From the NCBI RefSeq assembly GCF_002270415.1, contig NZ_NNRI01000007.1, forward strand, positions 62,001 to 126,000: a stretch of 64,000 nt of DNA, read 5' to 3'. Below are positions 26,646-34,310 of this stretch, one piece after another. The DNA is from Mesorhizobium sophorae (GTDB lineage Bacteria; Pseudomonadota; Alphaproteobacteria; Rhizobiales; Rhizobiaceae). The translations under genes and the position numbers were made by a program. The notes below the pieces were generated by a model. It saw only the letters and a list, made by a program, of their open reading frames with translations. It made no database searches and was not told the origin of the DNA. Every line of letters starts with the position of its first letter. Within the stretch, counting starts at the first letter, position 1.

Positions 26646-27126
26646 CTACAGGGCGACCAGCTCGGCGAGCTTGGCCGCGACGTCTGCCATCAGATTTTCT
26701 GCAGTACTCAGCCCGCTTCGCGAACCGAGCAGGGGGCTGACTTCGCGGAGAGCTTCGTACGTCGTGTCGTGCACAATGGGGACGAGCAGGTCACGCGCTA
26801 GGAGTGCCGATAATTCTTTGTCGGCGATGCCCTCTCCTTGGAGGCGGCGCAGCAGCGCAGGGGTCACCAGCACGATCCCGACTCGCGACTTCGTCGCCCT
26901 TGTCGATTTCGCGGAGCAACCGCGTGCCGAGGGCGACGTCCTTCTCGCTGAACCAGACCGAGACACCGCGCAACTCGAGCAGATCGTGCAGTTCCGTGGC
27001 GGCCCCTCTCCGGTCGTCCCACGCATGGCAGAGAAAGACGTCCCGAAGGTCAGGCCGGGGCGCTCGCTTTTCGACGCTGTCGCGGACCGGCGTGAGTGCC
27101 CGCACCTCGGCAAGCGTGTACGCCAC
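26646..27126 (-). pseudogene. TIR-domain protein with a frameshift
   Basis: The first frame starts at ATG 27126 and reads to DVFLCHAWDDRRGAATELHD, LLELRGVSVWFSEKDVALGT and RLLREIDKG: strand A, helix A and the loop with the likely catalytic Glu of bacterial TIR domains. Near 26880 the frame shifts, and the rest continues in another frame as SRVGIVLVTPALLRRLQGEG, LVPIVHDTTYEALREVSPLL and a final AAKLAELVAL. The joined product would be about 155 residues, a stand-alone TIR protein. Such proteins can act as NADases in defence. Either one base was lost or the gene is dead. Confidence 0.75.
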
Positions 27127-27536: not shown

Positions 27537-28889
27537 TCAACTCATCAGCCATCCGCCAGCTAGGCCAATGAACGCGTCTCGGTCCCTGGCCGCTTGGGGT
27601 ATTTCCAACCGCATCGCACCGAGAAGCATGCGCATGTTGGTAGCGATCAAGTCCGCCAAACTCTTCACCTGACGCTTTTCAAGAGCACCGAGACAGTCCG
27701 CGAGGCCTAATGCAATCTCGGACGGATAACGCTGGTGCATGCGTTTGCGTGCCGCAGCACTTTCTATTCCCAGCGCCAGGAGAAACGCATTAAGCTGTTC
27801 TGGGGTAACTTCATCGAGCGTTTCCGCCTCACCGATCCTGTAAGCGAGCTCGTCGGTCAGAGTGTCGTCGAGCCTGGTCGGCAAGATATCGTAACGCGGC
27901 GCAAAGTGGATTCTGCCTCCAGGTTCATAGAGCAGGGCGAAGTTTTTTGCATGTCCATCGTTATTGCCTATCAGGAGATCAAATATCGTGGCCCTGATGA
28001 AGGTTTCCTTCGCCTGGGCGGGATCGACCGTCGCCTCAAGTATCCTGCGGATGCCCGAAACGTCGAAGCGCCGGCCTGCCTTGCCACGCCTTTCGTACTT
28101 CATCGAGACCGGCAAACCGAGGGCCTGCGCGAAATCCTCCTGATGAAGACGCACGATCCTGTTCTGTCGGTCTCTGCCTCGGTCGAAGCGGGTCACGAGT
28201 AGGGTCTCGATCCCGCCAATCGGCACTACAGAGACTTCGGCCGTGTCGAACCCCAGCGCCCCGGAAAGCCTCATCGCCTCGGCCTCATACCGGGCATCCT
28301 GCTGATGATCGCGATCGGGCACTTTCAGGATGTGTGTCGTCGGGCCCCCCGATCCCCGCTTCGGCTCGGCAAACCTACCGTCCGGCAGAACAGTCAGGGC
28401 TATCTTGCTTTGCACGCCTGCCAAAGGGGACGGATCTTCAGTTCCGTCCGGCAGGCGTTTGCGCTGATGGAGTGCTTCGACGATCGCGATCATGCGATCC
28501 TGCGGAATGGGTACATAGTCGCTTTCGTAGTCGCCCGGGACTTTTGTCGGCGGCGATCCTGACGGAAGAACGGAAAGTGCTCCGGCACAGTCTTTTCCAA
28601 GGTGATATAGCAGGCCAGCTATGTCATCGCGGGTCAGGCCTTCTCGTGCCAGCACGTCGGTGAGCACGCCGTTGCGCTCCTGCAGAAGGTTGTCGAAGAA
28701 TGCTCGCGCTATAACGTCACGGTAAGGTTCTTCGGCAAGCGGAAGGGATAGCGATAAGGCGGTCGCATCTGATCTTCGAAGGTAGTCTGCCTTGTAGACG
28801 AAGGCGACTGAGCCGTTTTCGTCACGCACGAGGGCGCCGATCGGATCGACGAAACCGTCCAACCGCACATCAAGGGCAAGCACCTCCAT
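27537..28889 (-). CDS. hipA: HipA-family serine/threonine kinase toxin
   Basis: A 450-residue HipA protein from the ATG at 28889. It has the N-terminal HipA domain, the loop PSPLAGVQSKIAL (family SLAGAQ.K), the ATP-lysine strand THILKVP, the catalytic segment IGNNDGHAKNFAL and the metal-binding Asp in FAPRYDILPT, all intact. HipA kinases phosphorylate aminoacyl-tRNA synthetases and induce dormancy. The gene begins four bases after the hipB stop codon. An upstream start at 28910 would overlap hipB. The module appears functional, unlike most of its neighbours. Confidence 0.88.
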   Translation of the reverse strand: MEVLALDVRLDGFVDPIGALVRDENGSVAFVYKADYLRRSDATALSLSLPLAEEPYRDVIARAFFDNLLQERNGVLTDVLAREGLTRDDIAGLLYHLGKDCAGALSVLPSGSPPTKVPGDYESDYVPIPQDRMIAIVEALHQRKRLPDGTEDPSPLAGVQSKIALTVLPDGRFAEPKRGSGGPTTHILKVPDRDHQQDARYEAEAMRLSGALGFDTAEVSVVPIGGIETLLVTRFDRGRDRQNRIVRLHQEDFAQALGLPVSMKYERRGKAGRRFDVSGIRRILEATVDPAQAKETFIRATIFDLLIGNNDGHAKNFALLYEPGGRIHFAPRYDILPTRLDDTLTDELAYRIGEAETLDEVTPEQLNAFLLALGIESAAARKRMHQRYPSEIALGLADCLGALEKRQVKSLADLIATNMRMLLGAMRLEIPQAARDRDAFIGLAGGWLMS

Positions 28890-28893
28890 TGTA

Positions 28894-29676
28894 TCAGCGC
28901 ACCTGAGCAAGCAGCGATATGCCGGCTGCTTGCGCGACCTTCAGGACCTTACCCAATTCAAGTGTGGGTTTGCCGTTTTCCAGTTCGGATAAAAACCTGC
29001 GCCCCACTCCAGCAAGGTCAGCGAAACTTTGCTGCGAGAGATGTCGGGCCTCGCGGGCGCGCCGGACTAGCCGCCCAATATCTGAGGCAGAGACGATCTC
29101 CAGTCCTAAGGTATCCGTCCCGCTATGGCGCGGTGAGGCCGCGCCGGCGTCCTCGTCCTCGTCGTTAGTCTCGCTGCCGCGCAGCAGATAAGCGTCGGGA
29201 AGCGTTCTGGGCAGGGCAACCGTGATGAGTTGTGAAACACCAGGAAGCTTCAGGTTGACCTGCGGTATTGCGCCGGTCAGTTGTTTGGTCAGGTCCCCCA
29301 GAGCGTTGACGCGGGAAAGTGCCTCGACGGTCCCCGTCGCATTGACTGATTTCCTGATCGTCTCATTACGATGCAACAAGTCCTTGCTGGCCGCTTCGAG
29401 CGCTTCACTGGAAGCATTGATGTGTGCGATGTGTTTCGCCAGGTCTTGAGAAGAGGGAATCTGGGAAAGCGCCTTAGCGATCTCTCCCGCCTGCAAAGAG
29501 TTCTTGATCGTGGCATTGTGGCGCGACAGGGCCCGAGTGGCGTTTCTAAAGGTATCGTCAGACGATTTGAGATCCGTGAGAAGCTTCGTCAGATTCTGGG
29601 CAGGACCCGCCTGCGCAAGCAGCTTTGCGATGTCTGTCGCGCTGCCAGCGCCCGTAAATTGCATTCTTTTGGCCAT
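28894..29676 (-). CDS. hipB: HipB-type antitoxin with repeat-containing N-terminal extension
   Basis: At 260 residues this is about three times the usual HipB length. The C-terminal 62 residues are the Xre-type DNA-binding domain (SDIGRLVRRAREARHLSQQS, then FADLAGVGRRFLSELENGKP). The first 140 residues contain 50-residue repeats: 40-89 and 90-139 align across their whole length (for example RHNATIKNS versus HRNETIRKS), and 12-39 aligns with the second half of a unit. They are predicted helical. An acidic linker (NDEDEDAG) joins the parts. GGGAG sits six bases ahead of the ATG, inside the first operator-like site. Confidence 0.85.
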   Translation of the reverse strand: MAKRMQFTGAGSATDIAKLLAQAGPAQNLTKLLTDLKSSDDTFRNATRALSRHNATIKNSLQAGEIAKALSQIPSSQDLAKHIAHINASSEALEAASKDLLHRNETIRKSVNATGTVEALSRVNALGDLTKQLTGAIPQVNLKLPGVSQLITVALPRTLPDAYLLRGSETNDEDEDAGAASPRHSGTDTLGLEIVSASDIGRLVRRAREARHLSQQSFADLAGVGRRFLSELENGKPTLELGKVLKVAQAAGISLLAQVR

Positions 29677-29684
29677 GCTTTGCT

Positions 29685-29822
29685 CCCGAGCGGGAACATA
29701 GCCTTGCTTCTTCAGACTTTCAAGAAGATTCGCTCCCGAACGGTATCATAGCTCATATTGATCCCGAACGGGTTCAGGCGCTTTTAGTGAGAACATTCTA
29801 ACGCCGTCTGATACCGTTCGGG
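29685..29822 (-). promoter_or_regulatory. Four HipB operator-like sites
   Basis: Four related sites lie upstream of hipB: CCCGAGCGGGAACA (29685-29698), CCCGAACGGTATCA (29735-29748), CCCGAACGGGTTCA (29763-29776) and, inverted, TGATACCGTTCGGG (29809-29822). The second and fourth are exact reverse complements. The first covers the hipB ribosome binding site. Autorepression by HipB at multiple operators is known in E. coli, so this is the likely role. From 29823 to 30395 I see no gene. Confidence 0.75.
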
Positions 29823-30395
29823 TGCATAAGTAGTCGAGGGCCGATTGTCCATGCCTGCGGGCCGACCGTCCGATGTCGGACTGGAGCACGTCGGCGATAT
29901 TCCTAAAATGTGGGATCGATTTGTCTGGCAGGCTACCAATACATGGTGCATAACAAGTAGAAAGCTCAATTTTTTCAACGGCATGGCGAGAAATCGAAAG
30001 ACGCTTCCCCCGCCAGTCAATCCCTAAAAAAGGCCGGGAACCATGGGGTTTGGCGATTTTCGCTTAGTGACCAACTAACCAATCTACTAATCAACCGTTC
30101 AGGCAGCACAATCACTTCCGATTGTCGCCGTGGGCGGTATTTAATCCGCGCGGGTTTGGGAAAGGGTGTCGGATGATGCGTGGGCGATTTGGCACGATCC
30201 CAGCAACATGTTTAGCCAATATGTCGAGGCACGATTGTTCCTAAGACGTTTCTCCCGGCTATCGGCTACGTGATCGTTGAAAAGTCGCGACGGCGCTGGG
30301 TGCGAGGTACCATCCCCACCAAGCCCATCCAGTCGTGCAATTGAGGATTGGGGCCGTTTGTGCTTGGATGATCGATGGGCATATGGGAGGGCGAC

Positions 30396-31546: not shown

Positions 31547-32922
31547 ATGCTGCACCATCCCAGCGCCGCTGTCGGCGATGCCGTTCCCCAGATCCTGCGC
31601 CAGTGGCTTCAAGCGTTGCGCACCTGCTTCACAGCGCCCAGTTGGGAACATGTCCTTGTTCTGATCATGGGAGCTTTGCTGGCGCCGGGCAAGCGGACCG
31701 TCAGTTCCTGCCTACGCATGACCGGCCGGGCCGAGGCCGCCAACTTTGCAAGCTACCACCAGATCCTCAACCGAGCCTGCTGGAGCCCCCGCAGCATTGC
31801 CAGGCGATTGCTGGGCCTTGTGGTCGAACGGCTCGTGCCAGATGGCCTCATCGTCATTGGCATGGACGACACCATCGAACGACGATGGGGACGCCGGATC
31901 AGCGCACGGGGCATCTACCGGGATCCAGTGCGCTCCAGCCATGGCCATTTCGTCAAAGCCAGTGGCCTGCGCTGGTTGAGCTTCATGGTGCTAACCCCGG
32001 TGCCATGGACAAGCCTGGTAAAGGCCTTGCCGGTCTTGACCCTGCTTGCTCCGTCCGAGCGATCCGACCATCAACGCGGGCGGCGCCACAAGCTGCTGAC
32101 CGACTGGGCGCGGCAGGGCGCACTGCAACTCTGTCGCTGGCTGCCGGGGCGCCGCATCATCTTCGTGGGCGACAGCAGCTTTGCCGTCCATGAACTGGCC
32201 CATGCCATCACTGCCAGGGCAACGCTCATCAGCCGGCTGCGACTGGATGCCAGCCTGTTTGCGCCGCCGTCAAAGCGGACCACGCGCACCGTCGGTCGGC
32301 CAGCGCAAAAAGGTCCAGCGCTACCAAAGCTCAAGACACTCCTGTCCAACCCCGCCACGACCTGGGCCAGGATCATCGTGTCCGCCTGGTATGGCCATGT
32401 CGAAGGCAAGACGCTCGAGATCACGTCTGATACCGCCTTGTGGTACAGGCCCGGTACCCCGGTAATGCCGATCCGCTGGGTGCTGGTCCGGGATCCCGAT
32501 GGCAAACGCGCCCCTCAAGCCTTCTTCAGCACGGACATCCCCTCGAGCCCGCCGAAATCATCGCCCTGTTCGTCCGGCGCTGGCAGATCGAGGTCACGTT
32601 CGCTGAGACCCGTGCCCATCTTGGCGTTGAGACCCAGCGGCAATAGTCCGACAAGGCCATTGCACGAACCACCCCGGCATTGCTCGGGCTCTACAGCTTC
32701 ATATCGCTATGGGCCTGCGATCTGCTCACCGGCACTACCACCCCATACGCCGCAGCGTGGTACCGAAAAACCAGCCTGACGTTCAGCGACGCCATCGGCG
32801 CCGTCCGCCTCGCAATCTGGATCGGCGATATTAATCAACACTCCCCGCCAAACCGGGAGCGACAAAATATCCCGCAAGAGCGCATCCTGCGAATGGCCCA
32901 AGCCCTGTGCTTCGCCACCTAA
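31547..32922 (+). pseudogene. IS701-like DDE transposase, disrupted
   Basis: The frame from 31547 encodes a DDE transposase: LPQILRQWLQALRTCF-like N-terminus, first Asp in LIVIGMDDTIERRWG, second Asp in IIFVGDSSFAVHELAH. After DGKRAPQAFFSTDI (about 32535) the frame shifts, and the Glu region appears in another frame as EIIALFVRRWQIEVTFAETR, followed by a TAG near 32645 and then PALLGLYSFISLWACDLLTG to a stop at 32922. One frameshift and one stop make it inactive unless supplied in trans. Confidence 0.82.
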
Positions 32923-33606: not shown

Positions 33607-33894
33607 TTGTTGGTATTTTTGTTGGTTAGTGCTGTCGCTGTGCGAGTTCCAAGCGTTTGAAAACAAAGCTAGATTTTCTTGGCTTGGATTCCGCCTCTGG
33701 GCACCATCCCTCCTCTCCCCATACGCCCCCTTGCCGAAGCTTCCACGCTTCCGTCTATACAAACCATTGAAATCGTTTATTTTTTCGGCGCACATGGCGC
33801 ACTTGGACGCATTTCGACGGCTTTCAGTGCATTTGGTCCAACGGGGCGCGGGGATGGTATTTCCGTTGGTATTCGGCATCTTTTTGGTATCGAA
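33607..33894. repeat. Repeated GGTAT motifs upstream of the integrase stump
   Basis: TTGTTGGTATTTTTGTTGG at 33607 and three further GGTAT motifs (33856, 33868, 33886) lie in front of the P4-type integrase fragment. Repeats of this kind often form part of an integrase attachment or arm-site region. No tRNA gene is visible here. The stretch 33396-33907 otherwise holds no gene. Confidence 0.3.
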
Positions 33895-33907
33895 ACAGCC
33901 AAAGGAG

Positions 33908-34310
33908 ATGTGTCGAATCGCCTTTTCCGACGTGAATTGCCGAAACGCTCGCCCCGGTCTCAAACTCGTGAAACTGTCTGACGGTGGCGGGCTCCAGCTA
34001 TGGGTGCAGCCCACAGGATCTCGCCTTTGGCGGCTCGCCTACCGCTTTGACGGCAAACAGAAACTTTTGGCGTTGGGCAGCTATCCCCTTATCTCCCTGG
34101 CCGAGGCACGTGAGGCGCGCGATGATGCTAAACCTCTCCTGCTGGCTGGCATCGACCCCGGGACGCAGTTTGCGCAAGGCCGGTTCGGTAAAAGACTCCT
34201 TTCGGTCAATCGCGGACGAATACGTTAACAAGCTGAAGAAGGAGGGGCGTGCCGACCGGACGATTGCCAAGGTCAAATGGCTGCTCGACTTTGCCTATCC
34301 GCCTAACTGA
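33908..34310 (+). pseudogene. P4-type tyrosine integrase, N-terminal remnant
   Basis: From ATG 33908: FSDVNCRNARPGLKLVKLSD, GGGLQLWVQPTGSRLWRLAY, RFDGKQKLLALGSYPLISLA, the DUF4102 N-terminal domain of P4-type integrases. After LLAGIDPGTQ (about 34165) a frameshift moves the similarity to another frame, which reads DSFRSIADEYVNKLKKEGRA then TIAKVKWLLDFAYP and ends at 34310. The catalytic domain is missing. It indicates that a genomic island was once integrated here. 34311-34535 is empty. Confidence 0.85.

Follow-up and report, generated by a model that had tools for sequence, protein, structure and literature searches.

The usual picture of a HipB antitoxin is a small HTH dimer that blocks HipA away from the active site. 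In the available part of PMC3376134, the unstructured C-terminal tail of Escherichia coli HipB is reported to be required for degradation by Lon but not for binding to HipA or DNA. The HipB of Legionella is reported to have three operators with 53 bp gaps (PMC10653801, available part).

The hipB gene studied here lies in a 64,000 nt stretch of the Mesorhizobium sophorae genome (contig NZ_NNRI01000007.1, positions 62,001 to 126,000), which we call the window and whose numbering we use throughout. It is an ORF of 260 aa with an ATG start on the minus strand (P0001; 28894–29676), and the product is an antitoxin/repressor with a long N-terminal tail. As the preliminary description had it, the protein contains an Xre-type DNA-binding domain: residues 199–255 (28912–29082, minus strand) match the HipB-type HTH model TIGR03070 (couple_hipB) with 73.3 bits against a cut-off of 71.65. 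A full-length hipA (27537–28889, minus strand) starts 4 bp beyond the hipB stop and encodes a kinase toxin of 450 aa, counted from an ATG; an in-frame TTG is also present upstream, at 28910. HipA matches Couple_hipA in its N-terminal part (1.4e-20) and the HipA_C core (1.4e-39), both above the curated cut-off, and has the catalytic motif NNDGHAKN. Judged on these matches, the locus is a type II hipBA toxin–antitoxin module, with a HipA kinase and an adjoining HipB-type HTH gene. It is not of the HipBST kind, which has a kinase without the N-subdomain and a separate HipS, as HipA here contains Couple_hipA. Nor is this HipB of the classical E. coli-like form, which is 70–90 residues long with a C-terminal tail past the HTH; it ends 5 residues past its HTH match and so has no C-terminal tail. 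We propose, with a probability of roughly 0.4, that HipB is an autorepressor and that its N-terminal tail is an arm contacting the HipA subfamily found at this locus.

The tail contains an internal repeat. A unit of 50 residues occurs about 2.5 times over residues 12–139, and the best ungapped self-diagonal within residues 1–185 has an offset of 50 (13–83 against 63–133) and a score of 99, compared with a mean maximum of 27.8 ± 4.5 in shuffled sequences, none of which (0/1000) reached 99. The preliminary description had placed tandem copies at 40–89 and 90–139 and half a copy at 12–39. These copies are real: the two units align with a score of 56 against 22.4 ± 4.5 (0/1000 shuffles as high), and the half copy aligns to 40–89 with 43 (0/1000 as high) and to 90–139 with 32 (12/1000 as high). 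On the self-alignment, the better phasing of the repeat is nevertheless unit 1 at residues 12–61 (29494–29643), unit 2 at 62–111 (29344–29493; 32 % identical to unit 1) and a half unit at 112–139 (29260–29343), all on the minus strand. Then follow, on the same strand, a segment at residues 138–166 (29179–29265) with the sequence LPRTL at 155–159, which we call the LPR segment, and the acidic linker that had also been described, at residues 167–192 (29101–29178), with 7 D/E, 1 K/R and a pI of 4.1.

The repeat part had also been described as all helical. AlphaFold2 draws helices both for the whole HipB (pLDDT 41.4, from a five-row alignment) and for residues 12–166 alone (pLDDT 54.7); each unit is given one short helix and one long one, with low confidence. 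Because the well-known HTH fold itself scored only about 50 in the whole-protein run, the five rows were too thin an alignment for a judgement, and this confidence says little either way about the tail. The helical hydrophobic moment of residues 12–139 is 0.292, against 0.211 ± 0.030 in shuffled sequences (1/200 as high). The repeat units look helical and amphipathic; the helices appear in both predictions and the moment exceeds that of the shuffles, but the prediction confidence is low.

Residues 1–190 have no match above the curated cut-off shown in Pfam or NCBIfam, the best Pfam match being DUF7118 (15.5 bits against a cut-off of 27). When ten repeat units were searched alone against Pfam, the best E value was 0.0045, for Ribosomal_S20p in 1/10 units. 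The PHROGs matches to HipB are confined to residues 163–256 and none explains the repeat part, and the PDB sequences gave no convincing match to it. The view that no named domain has such a pattern, and that a profile search would not turn up a known, characterised one, thus holds within Pfam, NCBIfam, PHROGs and the PDB sequences. The weak matches to DUF7118, DUF7262, DUF7066, Ribosomal_S20p, Gp157, a Sleeping Beauty HTH, parvalbumin and other PDB chains were taken as chance resemblance among helical sequences rich in alanine. A profile of residues 12–166 matched 13/398 genomes of the phylum at E ≤ 0.01, strongly only for the window itself; the next-best matches (2.6e-4, mostly to frames of 614–680 aa) were also taken as chance. 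Searched with a model of the tail, 397 genomes of the order gave the window alone, viral contigs gave no confirmed match and phages gave no match. In plasmids the tail alone gave none, and the whole HipB as query matched 36 plasmid records.

Tails are nonetheless present in related HipBs. Of 146 Mesorhizobium genomes, a HipB match at E ≤ 1e-8 is present in 19 and the full 2.5-unit form in five (G000, G532, G001, G019 and G473). Most of the other 14 HipBs have, in their open frames, a HipB-type HTH with a different and usually shorter tail; three of the 14 (L049–L051) are of the short kind, and in one (L047) the sequence ahead of the HTH is masked. Tailed HipBs with a hipA after them are also present on plasmids of Rhizobium, Sinorhizobium and Agrobacterium. 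In a sample of the family, 25/394 genomes match HipB, of which nine, including the genome of the window, match well into the tail. In a sample of the class, 27/385 genomes match HipB and, besides the window, a clear long tail is found only in L089. Elsewhere in the Rhizobiaceae the N-terminal tails are about 90–150 residues long, and tails change quickly between clades. The HipB of L089 (925–1773) has a tail of 220 residues with an unrelated duplication of its own, of period 73 (score 109 against 28.8 ± 4.5).

A relative from another genus (L067) bears on the history of the repeat. Residues 17–39 of its tail match residues 67–89 at an offset of 50 (score 62 against 28.7 ± 4.9; 0/100 shuffles as high), so that by alignment this tail is about 1.5 units with the same 50-residue period as the window HipB. 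In an alignment of 11 HipBs, the shorter tails are placed against the window HipB from its second unit onward. Because L067 has 1.5 copies of the same period, the simplest history would be an older 50-residue unit, with one extra copy gained in the window clade. The repeat score was above all 100 shuffles in only four of 19 tails tested (L001, L031, L067 and L089), and tails without a detectable repeat usually still carry the LPR motif.

This motif, [LF]P[RKN]x[LIFM], is present in 20/25 tails (shuffled mean 0.69, maximum 6 in 1000), at 24 to 45 residues ahead of the cut used to delimit the HTH; the 20 are related rows and not independent events. The sequence of the tail outside the motif varies from clade to clade. 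A pattern search finds no LPR motif in the tails of L041, L048, L058, L070 and L089, and by eye L059 is also without one; in L058, L059, L070 and L089 HipA is present. The motif is kept in two HipBs without a hipA match (L043 and L046) and in L044, where hipA is deleted. Constraint along the protein was measured as pN/pS, pooled over ten pairs of five sequences. The ratio is 0.63 for residues 12–139, 0.37 for residues 138–166, 0.51 for the linker and 0.16 for residues 193–260, which contain the HTH. The repeats are kept in frame in all five sequences but are the least constrained of the measured parts of HipB.

The value of 0.63, compared with 0.16 for the HTH, would be expected if the repeats were weakly constrained padding, a chance duplication that has been tolerated, and if only the LPR segment and the HTH mattered. 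The tails of other clades in which no repeat is detectable and the unrelated duplication of period 73 in L089 also fit such an explanation. The ratio is still below 1, however, and the reading frame is intact in 5/5 sequences. Unit 1 retains ATDIAKLLAQAGP in all five, and seven helix-1 residues (A, I, A, K, Q, L and K) are invariant in 10/10 aligned units from five sequences; together with amphipathicity above that of the shuffles, these invariant columns argue against padding, which we consider rather doubtful but still a serious rival to the arm. Even as padding, the repeat would illustrate clearly the recent growth of an antitoxin tail.

A possible, if still doubtful, explanation, and likewise a serious rival to the arm, is that the tail controls turnover as a part recognised by a protease, the role that the unstructured C-terminal 16 residues of E. 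coli HipB have in degradation by Lon (PMC3376134, available part). The window HipB is without such a C-terminal tail, and quick variation between clades is what a degron may show. Against this, the tail-less HipB of Sinorhizobium fredii NGR234 (L061) also ends soon past its HTH, so the loss of the C-terminal tail is not special to tailed forms. Additionally, a degron requires neither a recurring LPR motif nor a 50-residue helical period.

Four Mesorhizobium loci (L041, L043, L046 and L048) have a solo tailed hipB with no hipA match in the flanks. The sequence QGDLFG is common to their tails and may resemble sliding-clamp-binding motifs. By eye, L041, L043 and L046 lie between or near D-Ala-D-Ala-ligase-like and membrane-transporter-like frames, and L048 does not. 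At L012 (1758–2108; the same place as L044), the hipA beside a tailed hipB is cut to its two ends, which form one frame of 116 aa with the middle missing. Tails that persist in solo HipBs might suggest that the tail senses a signal by binding some other protein of the host or of an invader as a third partner. The rapid divergence of the tails is compatible with this, and so are the internal duplications in L001 and L089, which are unrelated to each other, but the module is not accompanied by any partner gene. Within 6 kb flanks, the DNA common to the window and L028–L031 is essentially hipBA and its upstream sites (27464/27536 to 29826–30015), and we regard a third partner as improbable. Other frames in the window include a TIR_2 fragment (26794–27126, minus strand; 4.4e-08) that covers profile positions 1–47 of 122 in a frame that looks broken, a DDE_5 transposase-like ORF (31547–32779, plus strand; 9.5e-28) and an ORF (33629–34228, plus strand) whose Arm-DNA-bind_3 domain (1.6e-22) is the one that forms the N-terminal part of tyrosine-type integrases.

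The presence of a tail was compared with the phylogeny of HipA in a tree of 55 rows. A HipA match of 300 positions was required for a row to be included, and 16 duplicate or near-copy loci were dropped by hand. Tail labels were set by eye from the frames, and that of L047 was assumed. The 23 partners of tailed HipBs and the 32 partners of short HipBs are split by one branch with a support of 100/100, and the label changes once on the tree, against about 17.9 times in shuffles (0/500 as low); L089 is a long branch whose placement is unsure. This suggests that the tailed HipBs belong to one HipBA branch, mainly of the Rhizobiaceae in these samples. Since hipB and hipA belong to the same operon, such concordance is expected also without contact; it shows common descent and is compatible with, but no demonstration of, contact between the tail and HipA. 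An apparent set of HipA-specific insertions, seen as many clade-specific C-terminal columns, was rejected as an artefact, the HipAs of short HipBs having been trimmed to local matches. The preliminary description of a HipB fused to a new domain needs correcting, as the protein is no one-off fusion. The tails go with one HipA branch, L067 has 1.5 copies, and relatives without a repeat are still tailed, usually with the LPR motif.

Upstream of hipB there are four inverted-repeat, operator-like sites with spacings of 50, 28 and 50 bp. Site 1 (29683–29696) has one mismatch to TTCCCGNNCGGGAA, site 2 (29733–29746) and site 3 (29761–29774) have three each, and site 4 (29811–29824) has four, is weak alone and was placed by the 50 bp spacing. 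At least two TTCCCGNNCGGGAA-like sites with ≤ 3 mismatches are present in 23/23 upstream regions (0.24 expected from simple shuffles), and in 21/23 a site starts 18–23 nt before hipB. NGR234, the only tail-less HipB among the 23, has similar sites at −23, −72 and −121. Single TTCCCGNNCGGGAA-like sites are at chance level genome-wide (9 rows against 13 in a reversed control), and the window contains the pattern 52 times, compared with 38.6 times in shuffled sequence. As genome-wide occurrence was not above the reversed control, the pattern was rejected as proof of regulation elsewhere; only the spacing of the sites and their conservation upstream of hipB give them weight as putative operators. 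Four regularly spaced sites and amphipathic helices could suggest that HipB dimers along the array are joined into oligomers by the tail. A regular operator array needs no tail, however, because the tail-less NGR234 HipB has a comparable array and Legionella HipB, which is also smaller (chain 8ezt, 76 residues), has three sites with 53 bp gaps in the available part of PMC10653801, and we hold such bridging to be highly improbable.

Taken together, several observations may be counted for a HipA-contacting arm: the HipBA identity of the pair, the split of HipA along one branch, the recurrence of the LPR motif and the constraint on its segment, the amphipathicity of the repeats, the retention of ATDIAKLLAQAGP in unit 1 and the conserved operator-like sites. 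Counted against it are the joint inheritance of hipB and hipA, which predicts the concordance without contact, the solo tailed HipBs, the motif-less tails with HipA, the weak constraint on the repeats and the low-confidence predictions. Also counted against it is the disordered C-terminal tail of E. coli HipB, dispensable for HipA and DNA binding in the available part of PMC3376134. Were the tail such an arm, HipB dimers would hold HipA and at the same time repress the operon by binding the four-site array. The LPR segment would dock on this HipA subfamily as the likeliest contact of the arm, and the amphipathic helices would pack on HipA or on each other. The number of units may thereby change the reach or avidity of the arm, the window clade having probably gained one. 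It is a speculative and on balance unlikely extension that, in this HipBA subfamily, control of the toxin has shifted to an N-terminal arm that is modular and changes fast, made of a conserved LPR docking segment and helical units that can be added. Unit number would in that case tune how tightly HipA is held, or in response to what, and the two unrelated tail duplications would be two cases of such tuning. A whole branch whose HipBs share a recurring motif in N-terminal tails of 90–195 residues would imply that control has a second mode. The natural variants (1.5 and 2.5 units, and tailed HipBs without hipA) are a ready set with which to separate the neutralising, repressing and destabilising parts.

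Tailed HipBs are likely to be undescribed. We found no description of them in the titles and abstracts of the open-licence PMC literature, and the terms 'rhizobi' and 'Y4mF' are absent from the available text of a paper on HipA phylogeny (PMC8262856). At least one tailed rhizobial HipB in RefSeq is already annotated as a 'Y4mF family antitoxin'.

Among the described systems, E. coli HipBA resembles the window pair in its kinase toxin, with HipA domains, and its HTH antitoxin, but its HipB has 88 aa and no N-terminal tail and, in the available part of PMC3376134, depends on its C-terminal tail for Lon. The HTH repressor of Legionella HipBST has evenly spaced operators reminiscent of the array in the window (PMC10653801, available part), but there the N-subdomain of the kinase is the separate HipS, whereas the window HipA has Couple_hipA and HipA_C together. 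Y4mF of NGR234 shares with the window HipB the TIGR03070 HTH, a hipA directly downstream and an upstream inverted-repeat array; in contrast, it has 76 aa (CDS 2989–3219 of L061) and no tail, and its HipA lies across the split in the HipA tree. The HipBs of Rhizobium indigoferae (WP_193444886.1) and Agrobacterium (WP_082129065.1) are like the window HipB in having an N-terminal tail, which in them carries the segment PKIDLNLPDIS...LPKQL, an HTH and a downstream hipA. Their tails differ in having about 140 residues, about one unit fewer, and no significant self-repeat.
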